Positions 2,753 through 12,530 of a stretch of 20,382 nucleotides of DNA are shown here, piece by piece. Both the position numbers and the translations under genes were made by a program. Where the stretch lies: the IMG/VR virus record IMGVR_UViG_3300047546_000505, positions 1-20,382 of that record, one strand, 5' to 3'. This stretch comes from a virus. Position 1 is the stretch's first letter; each line of letters opens with the position of its first letter. The notes below the pieces were generated by a model. That model worked only from the letters and a program-made list of their open reading frames with translations. It was not told the DNA's origin and made no database searches.

Positions 2753-4816
2753 TTATTTGCTAGTTGCACGATAGACACCATCCCAATCAGCAGGTGGCGG
2801 ATTCTTCTTATAGTCTGCCACTCTTTCCATCATCATATCGTAATACTCTTTCATCTCACCGCCAAATGCACCTTCTAGATATGGATAGTATTCTTCACAT
2901 TTTTGCCATCTTTGATTAAAATAGTGGTCGATGAAGTCTGCGTGAGTTTTTGATTGTGCATGATTGAGACCTGTCTTATCTACGATAGTGTAGATGTTCA
3001 CACCTTCTTTCTTACCCTTGACGGCTAGACAGTCAAGCTGTAAACAGAGATACTCATCCTTTACAAGTTCATATGTTCTTTGACCAATCACCAGTTTAAC
3101 ATGATATGGTTTACTCTGACCTTCTAAGCGCGAAGCCAAGTTGACAGAATCCCCCAAGCAGGTATAATCAAATCTTTGATCGGAACCCATGTTGCCAACA
3201 ACAACATCACCAGTATTGATCCCAAGACCCATACCAAAAGGAGGAACACCTTCAGCAGCGATAGAATTGTTAAAAGCTTCGAGATCGCCGAGCATCGCAA
3301 GAGCCGTACGAACTGCATTCTTAGCGTGGTCAGCATCGTCAAGAGGCGCGTTCCAGAAAGCCATCTGAGCATCGCCGATATATTTGTCGAGTGTTCCATT
3401 GTTCTCCAGTATCTTTGCTGTCATGGCCGTCATGTAACGGTTCATGATCTGTGTCAGGCCTTGAACATCACTGCCATAATGCTCAGAGATAGATGTAAAG
3501 CCACGGACATCAGTAAACATAATCGAAAGCTCACGGGTCTCTCCTCCCAACTTGAGTAGTTCTGGATTCTTCTGCAACTTTTCAACAAGTGCTGGTGACA
3601 GATATGTACCAAATTGCTTCTTGATCTGTTGCTTCAGTCTAAATTCACGGGCGAAGTTGTTAAAGACCAGCTGACCATAAACAAAAGTGCCTGCTAGTAT
3701 TATGTAGCTTGGATCCCAGAGTTGAAGTTCTGTAGAGAATAAGTAATAAGAGGCATAGCCAGCACCACCAACGAAAAGAAAATAAAATGGGACCGTCAGC
3801 AGAACAGATAATCTTGGTACTAGGGCAATTATGGTCAGTAATGTTCCTAGCAGCACTCCTAATTCCAATGTTCTCGCATACGAAGCGCGAGAAATAGAAG
3901 TACCGTCAATCAAAGTTTGAAGTGCTTGTGCTTGTATCTCATGAGCCCATTTCTCACCAATTGGTGTTGCAATAATCCCACCAACACCTTCAATCGTCAA
4001 TCCTAAGACAACAATTTTCCCTTCGACTTGTTCTTTTGTAATATCTGTTGCCTCAATGCGTTTGAATCCATTGTTCCATGCGAGCCAGATGCGGCCGTTT
4101 TGATCTGTAGTGATGGGCGGGAAGGCAGGGATGCGGACGGCCTCGACACCGGCTTCACCTGCTTTGATTTGGTAAGAGGGGTCTCCAGCAGCCGTGCGTA
4201 GGGTTTCCAGTACAAGTGAAGGATACAATGTATCCCCAATGCGAGCCAGCATAGGCAACCTACGAACAACACCGTCACGCTCGGAAGCAACAGCCAGAAG
4301 TCCAACCCCGTCTGCATTTCCTGCCAAAGCAGGTAAAGGAGCGATAGCCCCGCGCCAAGTAAACAACCATGGAGCAGGATCATCACCGATAGCAGCAAAC
4401 CCTCTGCGAGCCGCATCTGGGTTTCTTGACTGAGTTGTTGGTGTTTGTGATATAACGATACCACCGCTGCCCACACTCTTTGTAAGATCGTCATCACCAC
4501 CGGCGCGATCTTTTTCTGAAAAGAGGATAGGGATTGCGATAACGCCTGCACCAGCCCAACGAAGACGTTCGATAGTTGCTGCAATATCTCTACGATCAAA
4601 TGGCCACTGGCCATACTCTTGAACAGATTTTTCACCAAACTCAACAAGGATTACCTCTTCTGACTGTTTCTTTTCTAGTGAACCAATAAGATAGTCAAAA
4701 GTTTTCAGTTGTAAAGTTTCAATCGGGCTTAAGTTCACCGCGTAGATAGCGACTGCCAATAACGCCGTCACCATTACTGCCCAGGCACTCGTTAATAGGT
4801 TGCTTAAATTTTTCAT
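2753..4816 (-). CDS. CHASE2-domain class III adenylate cyclase
   Basis: A 687-residue membrane sensor enzyme making cAMP from ATP. Residues 11-30 form an N-terminal membrane helix. Residues 31 to about 310 are a CHASE2-type extracytoplasmic sensor (WPFDRRDIAATIERLRWAGA is typical), followed by two or three membrane helices at about 315-385. The cyclase domain spans about 425-612. Its catalytic set is complete: metal-binding Asp436 (FTDVRGF) and Asp482 (KYIGD), adenine-selecting Lys478 and Thr552, and transition-state Asn559 and Arg563 (VNLASRLE). It is thus predicted active and ATP-specific. A C-terminal tail of about 75 residues is unassigned. The gene is last in the curli-like operon, two bases after the small curlin-like gene. 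CHASE2 cyclases are usual in bacterial chromosomes but surprising in a phage. Confidence 0.93.
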   Translation of the reverse strand: MKNLSNLLTSAWAVMVTALLAVAIYAVNLSPIETLQLKTFDYLIGSLEKKQSEEVILVEFGEKSVQEYGQWPFDRRDIAATIERLRWAGAGVIAIPILFSEKDRAGGDDDLTKSVGSGGIVISQTPTTQSRNPDAARRGFAAIGDDPAPWLFTWRGAIAPLPALAGNADGVGLLAVASERDGVVRRLPMLARIGDTLYPSLVLETLRTAAGDPSYQIKAGEAGVEAVRIPAFPPITTDQNGRIWLAWNNGFKRIEATDITKEQVEGKIVVLGLTIEGVGGIIATPIGEKWAHEIQAQALQTLIDGTSISRASYARTLELGVLLGTLLTIIALVPRLSVLLTVPFYFLFVGGAGYASYYLFSTELQLWDPSYIILAGTFVYGQLVFNNFAREFRLKQQIKKQFGTYLSPALVEKLQKNPELLKLGGETRELSIMFTDVRGFTSISEHYGSDVQGLTQIMNRYMTAMTAKILENNGTLDKYIGDAQMAFWNAPLDDADHAKNAVRTALAMLGDLEAFNNSIAAEGVPPFGMGLGINTGDVVVGNMGSDQRFDYTCLGDSVNLASRLEGQSKPYHVKLVIGQRTYELVKDEYLCLQLDCLAVKGKKEGVNIYTIVDKTGLNHAQSKTHADFIDHYFNQRWQKCEEYYPYLEGAFGGEMKEYYDMMMERVADYKKNPPPADWDGVYRATSK

Positions 4817-4818
4817 GA

Positions 4819-5085
4819 TCAGTACTGGTTAATGACATATGGACTATTAGGACAAGAATTGCCACAATCGACACTAAAGCTGTAGTTCTGTGGAGTAAGA
4901 CCTGACTGTGTACCACTAAATGATAGATTATTTCCGCGCAGGTCCACAGTAGCAGAATGGAGACCACCAGATTGAGTAATTGCGACATTTTGGTTCACTC
5001 CTTGCATATTGATGATTGCACTATTATTGATCTGTTGTGCGTTCACAGAAACCGTGAGTAAAAGAAGAGCGGCTAGAGTTCTCAT
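4819..5085 (-). CDS. Small secreted curlin-like protein
   Basis: An 88-residue protein with a signal peptide (1-16, cut after VNA). The mature part holds about two degenerate curlin-type repeats: NNSAIINMQGVNQNVAITQSG, then HSATVDLRGNNLSFSGTQSG. These have the alternating small/polar pattern with Asn, Gln and Gly of CsgA/CsgB strands. Two cysteines (DCGNSC) lie near the C-terminus and may form a disulfide. Its size and place suggest a minor subunit, nucleator or cap of a fibre (inference). The ATG overlaps the TAA of the FecR gene (TAATG), so the two are coupled. Confidence 0.75.
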   Translation of the reverse strand: MRTLAALLLLTVSVNAQQINNSAIINMQGVNQNVAITQSGGLHSATVDLRGNNLSFSGTQSGLTPQNYSFSVDCGNSCPNSPYVINQY

Positions 5086-6197
5086 TAGTTTGATTGCCTT
5101 ATGTTTATTGTTGTTGTACCAGCACTGTTCACGATCTGTTTGATGTTGATACCTTCTTGCATGATGTTGACCGTTGCATTGTTCAGTGTTGAGAGTGTGA
5201 CCTCTGCATATGCGGTATTCACTTCGCGATACAATGTCACAAAGTCATTCTCAACAAAATACTTCAGACCACTTCTTGCGTCATATTTAGGCAGTAAGGC
5301 ATTAAACTCAGCCAATTCATTTCCTAGTAACTGAGATGAGGAAACATCTAAGAAGTTATAGAGAAAGTCCACATCCAGAAAATTACGGTCGAGTTTATTA
5401 TACTCGGTCAAATAGTTTCTGTCAAGCTCGGTATACTTCAGTAAATCTTTTCCTAGTAGGTCTTCATCAAGATAGTTAAATGCTCTGGCTTCTGTTCTTT
5501 GTTCAATCACCACTTGTTTTGGTGGTGTGACGATGATCATATTATTGATCTGATCAAGAGATAAACTTAGTATTGCTGTCTTAGGTCTATCAACAGATGT
5601 ATTGACAACCACAGCCTCAAATGGCTTTGTCAACCAAACCGTTCCCATATCGGTTGTTACAGATATAGAACCTACGATACAATCTCTCTGTATGTTTTTC
5701 CAACCTACAGGGCAAGAAGGAAGCAATACGATAGTTGATTTACCAGTTTCATCTACTGTACCAGAAAAGTCAGTACCACGAACACCAATGGTGGCCGTTG
5801 GAGTTTCTACCTGAACTTGTTGTGGATCATTTTTGGCTATCTGACCACTGGCATACTTGATAGTGCCAAGTGCCATTTTCATGCCAAGTTTGCCAGTTTT
5901 TCTTGAATCATCGTAAACAAAGGTGTCGATCACCAGTCTAGAATGTTCTGTGATCTGCACCTTTGTATCGTCTTTGAATGTGATACCCGCCCTAGCATTA
6001 GCTGTGGTAATAGTATCTTGCATTTCAACACCAGCATCTTTAGTGCTAGGTATCACATTCTTGTCTCGTTTTATTTCTGTAGGTCCAGTTTGTTCCGTTA
6101 CAGTTCCAACCGCAGCATTAGTTGTGGTTGGACTTAACTGTAAGGTTGTTACCAGAACCAGTAATAGTACTAATGACCTTAGAGTCAACTGAGCCAC
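5085..6197 (-). CDS. Secreted FecR-domain protein with curlin-like tail
   Basis: A 370-residue protein with a signal peptide ending near NAA (residue 29). A FecR-type domain spans about 30-195; the segment TPTATIGVRGTDF at 133-145 is its hallmark. A Cys pair (162, 173) follows. Residues 240-290 have a repeating Leu-Asp-Arg-Asn-aromatic-Leu pattern. The last 40 residues (NNATVNIMQEGINIKQIVN, then TTTINIRQSN) resemble curlin repeats. It may join the fibre and signal, or template it. The start is uncertain: GTG at 6197 is listed, but TTG at 6188 has the better ribosome site (AGGTGG, five bases upstream). Either start overlaps the curlin gene upstream by over 70 bases. FecR proteins often accompany CHASE2 cyclases in bacteria (from memory). 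Confidence 0.88.
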   Translation of the reverse strand: MAQLTLRSLVLLLVLVTTLQLSPTTTNAAVGTVTEQTGPTEIKRDKNVIPSTKDAGVEMQDTITTANARAGITFKDDTKVQITEHSRLVIDTFVYDDSRKTGKLGMKMALGTIKYASGQIAKNDPQQVQVETPTATIGVRGTDFSGTVDETGKSTIVLLPSCPVGWKNIQRDCIVGSISVTTDMGTVWLTKPFEAVVVNTSVDRPKTAILSLSLDQINNMIIVTPPKQVVIEQRTEARAFNYLDEDLLGKDLLKYTELDRNYLTEYNKLDRNFLDVDFLYNFLDVSSSQLLGNELAEFNALLPKYDARSGLKYFVENDFVTLYREVNTAYAEVTLSTLNNATVNIMQEGINIKQIVNSAGTTTINIRQSN

Positions 6198-6801
6198 CTT
6201 GTCTAATGTCCACAGTATTTGTGGCGCCTACGATAGTCAAATCTGCTTCATGACCATTAGTACCAGCAGCACCAGCCTGAGTAATATCAACTTGGTTACC
6301 ACCACCACCAGAAATATCCACAGTTGACTTAGCACCCATGGCTGATGTTGATGTATTATTGATATTGACGGTGTTGTTGTTTGTTGTGATTGTTACAGAT
6401 GAAGTAGTTAGACCATCTGTGTTTTGAGTCACGGTATTACCATCACCCGTGATTGAGTTTGTAATGGTAGAGCCAGAACAGTCACCTGCAATACCGCAAC
6501 CTATAGTCACGCTATTACTATCACCTGTCGTTGTACTTGTGATTGTGACTCCGGCACCACTAACCGTCAGAGCGGCAATATTACTATTACCAATCTGGTC
6601 TACTGTTACCGAGTTGTTATTACCATTAAAGCTCGCCTTGTTTGTCGCATTACCTACAGCGTTTGAATTACCAGTTTGTGTAATATTGACGGTAGTTCCG
6701 TCACCAATCTGTTCCACATATACATTGTTACTTGCTGCATTTGCATTTTGAACCATAACCAAGAATGATAAGAACGCCATCATTCTTGTTATTTTTTTCA
6801 T
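6118..6801 (-). CDS. Major curlin-repeat (CsgA-like) fibre protein
   Basis: A 227-residue secreted protein with a signal peptide cut near NANA (residue 22). The mature chain is almost wholly repeats of about 20-22 residues carrying Gln-x-Gly-x-x-Asn, for example VEQIGDGTTVNITQTGNSN, VTVDQIGNSN and VDITQAG. It is very rich in Asn, Thr, Ser, Gly and Val and nearly free of Lys and aromatics, as expected for amyloid-forming curlin. Cysteines at 102 and 108 could bridge. It lies directly after csgG (the stop TAA touches this ATG), with AAGGA as ribosome site, and would be the main substrate of the CsgG/CsgF pore. The 3' end overlaps the FecR gene. The repeats are degenerate and E. coli gatekeeper positions cannot be assigned. 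Confidence 0.88.
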   Translation of the reverse strand: MKKITRMMAFLSFLVMVQNANAASNNVYVEQIGDGTTVNITQTGNSNAVGNATNKASFNGNNNSVTVDQIGNSNIAALTVSGAGVTITSTTTGDSNSVTIGCGIAGDCSGSTITNSITGDGNTVTQNTDGLTTSSVTITTNNNTVNINNTSTSAMGAKSTVDISGGGGNQVDITQAGAAGTNGHEADLTIVGATNTVDIRQGGSVDSKVISTITGSGNNLTVKSNHN

Positions 6802-7614
6802 TTATTTTTCCTTTTTGAAACTCCAGAGTTTCTTCTTTACACCTTCTTTTATCATATCTGTAACTGCGGCCTCAATAGCTATACGCACCGCATATGTGGT
6901 AGGTTCGTTGATAGATGAACCTGCTTCAAACTCAACTGATTTGGTACCAGCATCTACGAACTTAAATACGCTGGCACTTACACCTGTACTATAGACAGTT
7001 TTTGTCACACCAGTGGATAACATTATCTCACCTGTGTTTACCGAAATAAGACGAAGCATAACTGTCACTTCATCTTTACGATACTCTTGTTGAGCACCAA
7101 CACCAAGATATCTTGCACCGATACCACCTGTACCAAGATTGCTATCATAACCAACGATACCACCATCAATCATGATACCAGCAACAATAAGTGGTGTAAG
7201 AGGCTTTGCTTGATCTTTCTCATACAATTCGCGCTGAGAACGTATCAGTTGTCTTTCTTTGACCAGGTTTTCTAGTGCTACACGCTCAACAGGTTGAAAC
7301 CATTTTCCTTTGCCAGCATCTTGTAGAGCCTTGATGAGTATTACTTCACCGCCTTGGGTGACAGCAGAACTCAATGAAGCATAATTTGCGGCTGGTTTAC
7401 GTTGACCTGTTAGATCACCAAACTTGTATACCGCGATTGGTATAATTGGTCCATCAACAGGAACCAGATTGACCAATTCGTTGAAACGCTTTGAGGTCTT
7501 GATAACCTCAGGTGCATCAATCTGATTTTCAAAAGACTTGCTGCCCTTGATCTCTTTACCAGCACAACCAGCCAGTAGTAATAAGGACGTAACTATCGCT
7601 AAAAACTTTACCAT
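6802..7614 (-). CDS. csgG: CsgG-like curli secretion channel lipoprotein
   Basis: A 270-residue lipoprotein (lipobox LLAGC, Cys17), close to the 277 residues of E. coli CsgG and alignable along its length. Matching landmarks include DLTGQRKP (DETGQFKP in E. coli), SAVTQG, WFQPVERVALENLVKERQLIR, IVGYDSNLGTGGIGARYLGVGA, VNTGEI, FKFVDA and the C-terminal IKEGVKKKLW. CsgG forms a nine-fold outer-membrane pore that exports curlin. The E. coli constriction residues (Tyr51, Asn55, Phe56) are not strictly kept; the loop here reads AANYASLSS, which may change the pore. The ATG overlaps the csgF stop by seven bases and the TAA touches the curlin ATG, so the three genes form one translational unit. Confidence 0.96.
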   Translation of the reverse strand: MVKFLAIVTSLLLLAGCAGKEIKGSKSFENQIDAPEVIKTSKRFNELVNLVPVDGPIIPIAVYKFGDLTGQRKPAANYASLSSAVTQGGEVILIKALQDAGKGKWFQPVERVALENLVKERQLIRSQRELYEKDQAKPLTPLIVAGIMIDGGIVGYDSNLGTGGIGARYLGVGAQQEYRKDEVTVMLRLISVNTGEIMLSTGVTKTVYSTGVSASVFKFVDAGTKSVEFEAGSSINEPTTYAVRIAIEAAVTDMIKEGVKKKLWSFKKEK

Positions 7615-8045
7615 GCTAAACTTCCATAAGGTACAATAACTTGTGTAACAGAGCCGGCCGCATCGGTTATTGTCAGATTAATACTAGATCCATCAGAAGA
7701 CCATTCTATATGATTTCCAGCCACATCAAAATTACCACTTGTATTGCCATTGTCTTTGAATAGTTGTTCTGCTATCTTTTGAGATAGTGTGGCATATATG
7801 CGGCTTTCCAAGTTATTTAGAAACTTGGCTAGATTGGTGTTCTTTGCATCAGAGGCGGCCTTTGCAGCCTCAGCCTTCTTCTCATCTATTATTTTCTGGC
7901 GTCTGGTCTGTTCTTGGTTATCTATAGTAAGAACGTGAGATGAATAGCCTACGCCATTGAAAGCAGGGCTTTTGAAACCAAACTGCATTTCCGTGGCGTA
8001 AGCACCAGAAGATAGTAGTATAAAAAATGTGACCAGCTTCTTCAT
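7608..8045 (-). CDS. csgF: CsgF-like curli assembly factor
   Basis: A 145-residue secreted protein with a signal peptide cut after AYA (residue 17). The mature N-terminus TEMQFGFKSPAFNGVGY closely follows the E. coli CsgF segment MTFQFRNPNFGG that enters and narrows the CsgG pore. A Gln/Glu/Lys/Ala-rich helix (about 45-70) and a C-terminal beta part follow. CsgF links CsgG to the nucleator at the cell surface. The ATG at 8045 is preferred to an in-frame TTG at 8057 because GGAG lies six bases before it and the signal peptide then starts normally. An exact late promoter box sits 21 bases upstream. Confidence 0.93.
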   Translation of the reverse strand: MKKLVTFFILLSSGAYATEMQFGFKSPAFNGVGYSSHVLTIDNQEQTRRQKIIDEKKAEAAKAASDAKNTNLAKFLNNLESRIYATLSQKIAEQLFKDNGNTSGNFDVAGNHIEWSSDGSSINLTITDAAGSVTQVIVPYGSLAW

Positions 8046-8055
8046 GTCGCACTCC

Positions 8056-8079
8056 AATTCTTAACTATTTATAAGAATT
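8056..8079. repeat. Inverted repeat around the csgF late promoter
   Basis: AATTCTTA and TAAGAATT form perfect 8-base arms eight bases apart. Together they frame the late promoter box and lie just upstream of the csgF ribosome site. It could be an operator or a weak RNA hairpin. Confidence 0.5.
8066..8073 (-). promoter_or_regulatory. T4-type late promoter before csgF
   Basis: An exact TATAAATA on the minus strand, in the 32-base gap between the beta-barrel gene and csgF. In T4-like phages this octamer is the whole late promoter and is read by the phage late sigma factor with the sliding clamp. Its place implies late expression of csgF, csgG, the curlins, the FecR protein and the cyclase. Confidence 0.7.
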
Positions 8080-10537: not shown

Positions 10538-10599
10538 ATATTGTATTTGGTGCAGGTACGTTACGCCTGCTAAAGGTCATCGTCTTCCCACCCAAAATT

Positions 10600-10676
10600 T
10601 GGTCGGAGATGCAGGATTCGAACCTGCGACCCTTCGCTCCCAAAGCGAATGCTCTACCAGACTGAGCCAATCTCCG
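10600..10676 (-). tRNA. tRNA-Pro(TGG)
   Basis: Acceptor CGGAGAT/ATCTCCG with the C1-G72 pair typical of proline tRNAs, discriminator A, encoded CCA. Stem TTCGC/GCGAA with loop TTTGGGA gives TGG. Its 5' end lies two bases from the end of the structured RNA at 10679-10874. Confidence 0.95.
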
Positions 10677-10678
10677 TA

Positions 10679-10874
10679 AACTGATTAGATAGGATGTGTG
10701 TTATTGATGTGGTTCAGTCCACACCGTTGACTTTAATCTGAAACCTTATTATAGATCGCGACATCTCTTTTCAGTTTCAACTCAGTATTGGCCGTGGTAG
10801 CTATCCAGAGGACCCATTGACTGTATCCTAGCCTGACTTCACAGATATTTTCCACACACCCTATCTAATCAGTT
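10679..10874 (-). ncRNA. Structured RNA 1 in the tRNA cluster (new candidate)
   Basis: The ends, 10679-10700 and 10853-10874, pair as a 22-bp closing stem around about 150 bases. The only imperfect position is G-U in minus-strand RNA but A-C in plus-strand RNA, so the minus strand is favoured. Internal pairing is visible. The hairpin 10707-10724 (GTGTGG/CCACAT) again has G-U only on the minus strand. A GUUGAAAC/GUUUC-CAAC arm encloses AGAU/AUCU. There is no open frame and no tRNA fold. It is not recognised as 6S, tmRNA or RNase P RNA. T4 also carries two stable RNAs of unknown role (C and D) among its tRNAs, a possible parallel. Confidence 0.72.
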
Positions 10875-10965
10875 GTTCCTACAAAGAAACTCTATCTTTC
10901 GGACCGATCCCACCGAAGTGAACGGGTTGGAATTCAACCAACTAGAGTTTCTATGAAGAAACAAC
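10872..10965 (-). ncRNA. Structured RNA 2, three-way junction (new candidate)
   Basis: It follows the CCA of tRNA-Met with no spacer and abuts structured RNA 1. Terminal pairing: GTTGTT/AACAAC (10872-10877, 10960-10965), then a perfect 10-bp block (10885-10894 with 10943-10952). The linking part has one G-U that pairs only in minus-strand RNA, plus two mismatches. Two hairpins fill the inside: GGTTG/CAACC (10925-10939) and TTCGG/CCGAA (10898-10917). The fold is a three-way junction on a long stem. It lacks an anticodon arm, T loop and hammerhead core. Role unknown; a stable RNA processed with the tRNAs is likely. Confidence 0.7.
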
Positions 10966-11042
10966 TGGTGCCTAATGTTGGCATCGAACCAACTTTGACT
11001 GTCTTATGAGGACAGCGAGATAGCCAATACCTCCCAATAGGC
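10966..11042 (-). tRNA. tRNA-Met(CAT) or tRNA-Ile2(CAT)
   Basis: Stem CTGTC/GACAG with loop CTCATAA gives CAT; T arm GTTGG/CCAAC, discriminator A, encoded CCA. The acceptor GCCTATT/ATTAGGC has one T-T mismatch. A paired first base excludes an initiator. A second CAT tRNA lies at 12064; one may be the lysidine-modified Ile tRNA. Confidence 0.88.
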
Positions 11043-11314: not shown

Positions 11315-11343
11315 ATTATAGACGAAATGAGCTTCTATGTCAA
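11315..11343 (-). promoter_or_regulatory. Exact consensus sigma70 promoter
   Basis: TTGACA (11338-11343), 17 bases, TATAAT (11315-11320), all exact, on the minus strand. The -35 lies in the last codons of the 2OG-oxygenase-like gene. It would drive the 50-residue gene and the tRNAs and structured RNAs that follow. Host RNA polymerase should read it early. Confidence 0.85.
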
Positions 11344-11952
11344 GATCAATTCTGTAGCATTTTGAGAAGTACCAAAAATACCTTTTGCGAAGGTATTAAA
11401 GGCGATACTAATTCTTACATCTTTTCCTTTTGTCGTATCAACTCGGTGTTCCAAATTAGAAGGAAAGATAATCAAATCACCCGTCCTCACAGGAACAATC
11501 CACGTTCTGGCATTCTCATACACAAAGTCATTACTCTCTATATTGATAATGTTATTCAGTATTGGTGAAGTAAAAACAATGTTGTCTTCACCTTCGGTTG
11601 CTTTTGTGTATAGCACACCAGATAGGATACTATTCGCATGTGTATGTGTATGATGGAAATCACCTGGTTTTGTAAAGTTAAACCATGATTGCGTCATATA
11701 GAAATCCATCTTATTTACTGGTCTAATGATCTTATCAACATAGAAGTTGACACCAGCAAGACAGAAGGCCTTTAGATCAGCAATCCTTTCATCATTCAGA
11801 ACATCTTTTCTCGTAGAGATCATATTCCCCGTGTTCTTTTCATACTTATCAACGGAGCTAAAATAATCTTTTTCCTCTCGCGTGAAATCGCGAACGAGAT
11901 TAGACTTGATATAACAAGTAGGGAAAATTCTCTCAATACTAAAGATATTCAT
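11335..11952 (-). CDS. 2OG-Fe(II) oxygenase-like protein, HxH variant
   Basis: A 205-residue protein of the phage 2-oxoglutarate/iron oxygenase type. The core reads SWFNFTKPGDFHHTHTHANSI and continues to SGVLY; the distal part has GDLIIFPSNLEHRV then RISIAFN. Likely iron ligands are His103, His105 and His169, with Arg180 for 2-oxoglutarate. Where classical enzymes have HxD this one has HxH, as judged by alignment to the second copy at 15052, which has HRD. Such phage enzymes hydroxylate unknown targets, perhaps protein or nucleotide. GGTGAG precedes the ATG. The gene sits among tRNAs, which suggests later insertion. Confidence 0.8.
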   Translation of the reverse strand: MNIFSIERIFPTCYIKSNLVRDFTREEKDYFSSVDKYEKNTGNMISTRKDVLNDERIADLKAFCLAGVNFYVDKIIRPVNKMDFYMTQSWFNFTKPGDFHHTHTHANSILSGVLYTKATEGEDNIVFTSPILNNIINIESNDFVYENARTWIVPVRTGDLIIFPSNLEHRVDTTKGKDVRISIAFNTFAKGIFGTSQNATELILT

Positions 11953-11966
11953 ATTCTCACCGTGTT

Positions 11967-12057
11967 TGGTAGGCGTGTAGAGATTTGAACTCTATGGAAA
12001 ACGGTAATCTGCCGCTAAAGGTTTATAAGACCTTCCCCTGTACCAACAGCCACGCCC
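11967..12057 (-). tRNA. Class II tRNA-like gene with anticodon TAT
   Basis: Acceptor GGGCGTG/CACGCCT, discriminator A, encoded CCA, and T arm TAGAG/CTCTA with loop TTCAAAT as in leucine tRNAs. Stem AAGGT/ACCTT closes loop CTTATAA, giving anticodon TAT, which reads the Ile codon AUA. It has a 23-base variable arm (CGG/CCG stem), which bacterial Ile tRNAs lack. The D arm is abnormal: CTGT/ACAG around a four-base loop, or a shorter stem. It could be a Leu-type body with a changed anticodon, a true odd Ile tRNA, or a decaying gene. Confidence 0.75.
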
Positions 12058-12501: not shown

Positions 12502-12530
12502 ATTATATAGTATAGATATGCGATTGTCAA
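12502..12530 (-). promoter_or_regulatory. Exact consensus sigma70 promoter for the tRNA array
   Basis: TTGACA (12525-12530), 17 bases, TATAAT (12502-12507), all exact. The expected start is a few bases before tRNA-Arg(TCT). The -35 overlaps the last codon and stop of the small membrane gene upstream. It should give strong early transcription by host polymerase. Confidence 0.88.

Follow-up and report, generated by a model that had tools for sequence, protein, structure and literature searches.

The window, a 20,382-nucleotide fragment of a T4-like phage from IMG/VR whose UvsX is about 64% identical to cyanomyovirus UvsX, carries 21 tRNAs in two arrays, all of them on the minus strand. Curli-type genes lie on the same strand (Table 1); curli pore genes are already known from OM43 and SAR11 myophages (PMC9004378). 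Between tRNA-Met and tRNA-Pro, a first-pass annotation of the sequence had marked an unrecognised structured RNA, to which we refer, together with its homologues, as family A. The 22-bp stem described as enclosing the whole element was recovered to the base, and the flanks were likewise as claimed, with tRNA-Pro two bases away on one side and a second closed RNA abutting on the other. This neighbour starts directly after the CCA of tRNA-Met and occupies a position that also holds a closed RNA directly before family A at 20 other loci, hereafter called the slot.

Table 1. Features of the window, with positions counted from its first letter.
Feature	Coordinates	Strand	Remarks
Curli-type genes, whole region	2753-8057	-	
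CHASE2-guanylate cyclase	2753-4816	-	
FecR	5085-6197	-	
Curlin repeat protein	6118-6801	-	
CsgG	6802-7614	-	
tRNA-Pro(TGG)	10600-10676	-	downstream of family A
Family A, full element	10679-10874	-	196 nt
Closing stem, 3' arm	10679-10700	-	stops 2 nt short of tRNA-Pro
Conserved multi-hairpin core	10705-10853	-	133 bits with covariance model R1, the window copy being among the 15 sequences used to build it
Most conserved stretch, CAAUGGGUCCUC..CACGGCCAAUAC	10785-10818	-	contains the palindromic hairpin
Self-complementary loop UAGCUA	10798-10803	-	
Closing stem, 5' arm	10853-10874	-	22-bp stem
Neighbouring closed RNA, the window's slot copy	10875-10965	-	91 nt, immediately after tRNA-Met
tRNA-Met(CAT)	10966-11042	-	upstream of family A
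Sigma-70 consensus promoter	11315-11343	-	12/12 match (TTGACA-17-TATAAT)
Second sigma-70 consensus promoter	12502-12530	-	12/12 match; head of the array, upstream of tRNA-Arg

As minus-strand RNA, the closing stem runs unbroken through 22 pairs, of which 21 are Watson-Crick and one is a G-U pair that reads A-C on the plus strand, and an inner hairpin (GGUGUGG/CCACAUC) contains one G-U pair, again on the minus strand only. The claim that the imperfect pairs of both helices are G-U solely on the tRNA strand was thus confirmed. Folding the element as minus-strand RNA gave -67.4 kcal/mol (z -5.7; 0/200 shuffles), compared with -53.8 kcal/mol (z -3.7) for the plus strand. Across the entire window, no longer uninterrupted minus-strand stem was found at spans of up to 300 bases, and the best run in each of 200 whole-window dinucleotide shuffles ranged from 14 to 21 pairs, never reaching 22. 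The outermost CAGTT (10870-10874) can pair either with the element's own 3' arm or with the arm of the neighbouring slot element, so that the 5' boundary of family A is shared by about 5 nt. Neither ARAGORN nor Rfam called a tRNA at 10679-10874, and no cloverleaf was seen there.

Relatives of the window were retrieved by a helicase-based scan. One of them, L029, breaks off within its family A copy (88% identity over 56 nt), while in two syntenic contigs, L021 and L032, other closed RNAs occupy the same Met-Pro gap. A gapped pattern derived from the shared core then matched 25 contigs with unmistakable homologues, located in a tRNA array wherever the contig reaches far enough to judge, and further scans added L222, L273, L351 and L414, bringing the total to 30 contigs including the window. 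All are from IMG/VR except L222, which carries a phage tRNA array and was binned with a beta-proteobacterial MAG from a lake, making freshwater beta-proteobacteria candidate hosts. Model R1, built from 15 cores with the closing stem left out, also matched members that had not entered its construction, namely L105 (95 bits), L160 (72), L273 (142), L351 (158) and L414 (147). A T4-type gp23 capsid gene is present in five of the carrier contigs searched (G033, the 331-kb G034, G039, G040 and G042). Each searched contig holds at most one copy of family A, including contigs of 155, 108 and 85 kb. A close relative, L019, is 92% identical next door and lacks family A at this place, indicating that the element is not essential to the array.

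Outside this set, family A had no match among 50,697 deposited phages, and BLAST searches of the element, other members and their neighbours against these phages returned nothing or only tRNA and chance matches. A 15-mer pattern from the stem arm yielded chance matches only, and a 16-mer core pattern revealed no further true member. No Rfam 15 family matched the window copy or its relatives at the gathering threshold; at E values of up to 5, the window and L141 elements gave only microRNA-like or other chance matches to long stems. Group I intron, tmRNA, RNase P RNA, riboswitch and known ribozyme models were without a match at either setting. No earlier description of this RNA was found in the limited set of literature searched.

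We then evaluated covariation. In the core alone, 13 of 36 pairs showed two-sided change (shuffled mean 3.8). Across the 18 full-length members, two-sided change was seen in 30 of 56 consensus pairs of the full element (shuffled mean 7.3; 0/500) and 96.7% of cells were paired, counts that overstate independent events, since many of these members are closely related; relatedness is also ignored by the shuffle control. The covariation score was 0.255, compared with at most 0.069 for slid structures, and the signal is present in about six divergent lineages: the window, L273, L115, L149/L153, L105/L160 and the L141 group. The closing stem is maintained at about 20-22 pairs in every full-length member, with 98.6% pairing and two-sided change in 13 of 20 counted pairs. 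Pairing of the two arms within a member gives -20 to -33 kcal/mol, whereas arms crossed between divergent members pair far more weakly; for the window, the values are -32.6 kcal/mol and -6 to -14 kcal/mol, respectively. Within the core, compensatory variants include CGC/GCG, UGC/GCA and GAU/GUC in P3 and GUAAUC/GAUUAC, GUGAUC/GAUCAC and GAAAC/GUUUC in P7. Stem bases changing without compensation, named beforehand as the pattern that would speak against a structured RNA, were looked for in the homologues, and compensatory change was found instead. Base pairs have thus changed in matching pairs, indicating that selection has kept the folded RNA itself. Together with the negative Rfam searches, this extensive compensatory change upholds the description as an unrecognised structured RNA: family A is a real RNA family, carried by the window and at least 29 further uncultivated, mostly T4-like aquatic phage contigs.

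The same data largely refute a reading at the DNA level, in which the fold would be incidental and the locus either a recombination hot spot or an insertion of MITE type bounded by terminal inverted repeats. Terminal inverted repeats, presence/absence polymorphism among relatives and modular, apparently exchanged neighbours would all fit such an element. However, the internal hairpins covary, the arms differ strongly between divergent members yet remain complementary, the imperfect pairs are G-U on the tRNA strand only, all 19 complete members share the tRNA orientation, each contig holds a single copy, and no target-site duplication or direct repeat is visible at the window flanks. We consider this explanation very improbable.

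In 17 of the 19 complete members, the core ends 28-33 nt ahead of the next tRNA, a distance taken up by the 3' arm and a few bases. The identity of this tRNA varies (Pro, Lys, Ala or Cys), and in L149 and L153 it lies 826 nt off with family A still kept. Most members carry family A ahead of the first tRNA (Lys), after a sigma-70-like promoter. A boxA-like motif, G[CT]TGTTTGACAT, which carries G where canonical boxA has C, is conserved upstream in 17/19; the order in most other carriers is promoter and boxA-like motif, slot, family A and first tRNA. No match to this motif was found near the window array, in which the promoter closest to family A is followed by a small ORF, tRNA-Tyr, tRNA-Met, the slot, family A and tRNA-Pro. 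Orientation, spacing and promoters, all read from sequence, are consistent with processing of family A together with the tRNAs, as the first-pass annotation had proposed.

The location between promoter and first tRNA in most other carriers, along with the high conservation of unpaired nucleotides, could also point to a regulatory leader or switch RNA that governs read-through into the tRNA operon by antitermination or ligand sensing. We regard this as quite unlikely, as family A sits mid-array in the window, L105, L115, L116 and L149, and the next tRNA follows after only a few bases in most members, which leaves no room for a terminator or an alternative hairpin.

Long stems are a more general feature of these arrays. 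The second-longest stem of the window, a perfect 20-bp hairpin at 1420-1473, fills the gap between tRNA-Gln and tRNA-Lys; tRNA spacers hold both of the strongest stems as well as the 91-nt neighbour. In 24 related loci, the density of stems of at least 17 pairs is about fivefold higher in tRNA spacers than in the remaining sequence, where most such stems belong to promoter-proximal leaders of tRNA arrays. Hairpins related to 1420-1473, with changed stems, occur in other tRNA gaps (L021 16133-16183; L116 4630). Closed RNAs of other sequence, with perfect stems of 18-26 bp, lie flush or nearly flush with tRNAs in L105 (7548-7644 and 8017-8140) and L141 (6380-6597). A further 62-nt tRNA spacer of the window (10538-10599) has a weak fold (z -2.0) whose closing stem resembles a tRNA acceptor, and it is possibly a decayed tRNA. 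A viral contig with a tRNA array, L212, encodes an alpha-type, permuted tmRNA at 11684-12008.

Long closed stems cluster in the spacers and leaders of tRNA arrays and mostly adjoin the tRNA ends directly, as would be expected if family A were a cis-acting processing or spacer element. Its stem would then serve only for insulation or to set the place or timing of RNase cuts between tRNAs, with the RNA degraded afterwards. The payload-free appearance of the 1420-1473 hairpin fits as well, as do the stems that, in the absence of a slot, extend into the CCA of the preceding tRNA (L105, L149 and partly L115). A plain stem, however, would have no need of a separate palindromic loop or of some 60 invariant positions, which fall mainly in the core and in many cases are unpaired. 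Moreover, the core is retained across members in differing tRNA contexts, and contigs with as many as 29 tRNAs still hold a single copy, which favors a role in trans over a repeated cis signal. We therefore judge the cis-acting explanation unlikely, if less so than a leader.

The hairpin loop of P6 reads AGCU, UGCA or GGCC, all of which are self-complementary, and is embedded in longer palindromes (UAGCUA in the window; CUAGCUAG, CCUGCAGG, CCAGCUGG, CUGCAG or CGGCCG in others). The exchange of A-U for U-A spans a two-base gap and is thus not an ordinary hairpin pair. A mutual information search yielded no intramolecular partner column for the loop, and the AGCU and UGCA types follow no other column. 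Remaining palindromic through sequence changes while covarying with no column, the loop suggests homodimerisation, and its pairing between two RNA copies would be the simplest reading of the alignment. Palindromic tetraloops (CUAG, UGCA) are also found in some neighbouring slot heads.

Taken together, we favor the interpretation that family A is a stable ncRNA, probably excised from the tRNA precursor via a stem of RNase III length and acting in trans, presumably as a homodimer. Judged from its sequence context, it would be an ncRNA gene of the phage tRNA operon, transcribed on the tRNA strand from sigma-70-type promoters, and covariation shows its fold to consist of a conserved multi-hairpin core enclosed by a 22-bp stem. 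Bacterial RNase III requires a stem two helical turns long, and the closing stem, at about 20-22 bp, has the length of at least some 20 bp expected around an operon RNA processed by this enzyme. Such a stem may permit excision from the polycistronic precursor, as rRNA is excised from its operon, with the flanking tRNAs presumably freed by RNase P and the usual tRNA 3' processing. No RNase III gene was found in 18 carrier contigs searched, all of which are possibly fragments, so the host enzyme would be used. The released RNA would then be stable and trans-acting, and its loop, palindromic through all changes, may pair two copies, making a homodimer the probable working form. As for function, we speculate that its likeliest task during infection lies in translation or in taking over the host, with the RNA acting as a scaffold for, or sink of, some host or phage factor.

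The neighbouring slot combines a near-constant outer stem (GGUUGUUUCUUCA..UGAAGAAACAACU) with heads of about ten unrelated kinds, its closed elements spanning 46-142 nt. Some heads contain T-arm-like or tRNA-like folds, the head in the window opens with a GUUGG-UUGAAUU-CCAAC hairpin, and L021 and L032 carry another head in the same slot without family A. A few bases at the junction are common to the slot stem and the family A stem. In L127 (9746-9878), L112 and L140, the slot heads include a degenerate tRNA-like fold, and its anticodon-like loop, UCGCGU, is complementary to a CGCGA loop within the same head. We also observed a second recurrent closed RNA, family B, with the motif GGTGGTGAYAGNAGTTAGATAGC, which adjoins tRNAs in every case (L021 16009-16133, L032 7247-7383, L179, L189, L196, L197, L206, L208 and L212). 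Families A and B never occurred together in the contigs searched. A bolder and, in our view, still doubtful extension is that the tRNA operons harbor modular RNA cassettes, in which a constant stem with exchangeable heads is paired with a conserved homodimerising RNA; excised in the manner of rRNA, these might be used as RNA-only infection machinery or as a variable RNA counter-defence.

Phage tRNA clusters have been recognised as sources of stable RNAs from T4 RNA C and D onwards, and the ability of such RNAs to build large RNA-only assemblies is shown by GOLLD and ROOL. Family A adds a compact RNA that covaries strongly, has an architecture clearly suited to excision and offers a predicted dimer contact; its size puts transcription, folding, mutation and structure solution within reach. 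As many unrelated heads share one stem in the adjacent slot, phage tRNA operons may serve to assemble exchangeable ncRNAs, a class missed by annotation pipelines.

Among known systems, bacterial rRNA operon precursors offer an architectural parallel, as long stems close each RNA and a strong sigma-70 promoter and boxA lie ahead of the untranslated operon. The family A operon likewise has long closing stems, a sigma-70 promoter and a boxA-like motif; however, its stem encloses an RNA other than rRNA, the motif resembles boxA imperfectly and is missing from the window, and cutting by RNase III is a prediction. In retroviral dimer-initiation (kissing) hairpins, the palindromic loop may change in sequence while self-complementarity stays, just as in the P6 loop, although organism and RNA are different and the dimer is here a prediction. 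T4 rnaC and rnaD are late RNAs of unknown function, detected by Northern blot (PMC9697503). The parallel drawn with them by the first-pass annotation holds for context, as they too are small RNAs at the tRNA cluster of a T4-type phage, but fails for structure: their folds lack the 22-bp closing stem and rnaC ends in a tRNA T-arm fold. Model R1 did not match anything in the T4 locus (L221), and we rejected both as homologues. GOLLD and ROOL are structured phage and prophage ncRNAs of unknown function that often lie beside tRNA islands and self-assemble (PMC12286853). Family A resembles them as a structured phage RNA among tRNA genes, its self-association being suggested by one palindromic loop, yet GOLLD often exceeds 800 nt whereas family A measures 196 nt with one 22-bp closing stem. 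Their Rfam 15 models had no match in the window or its relatives at the gathering threshold, nor at E values of up to 5 for the window and L141. GOLLD and ROOL are thus nearest to family A in context and possibly in behavior, while family A belongs to neither.
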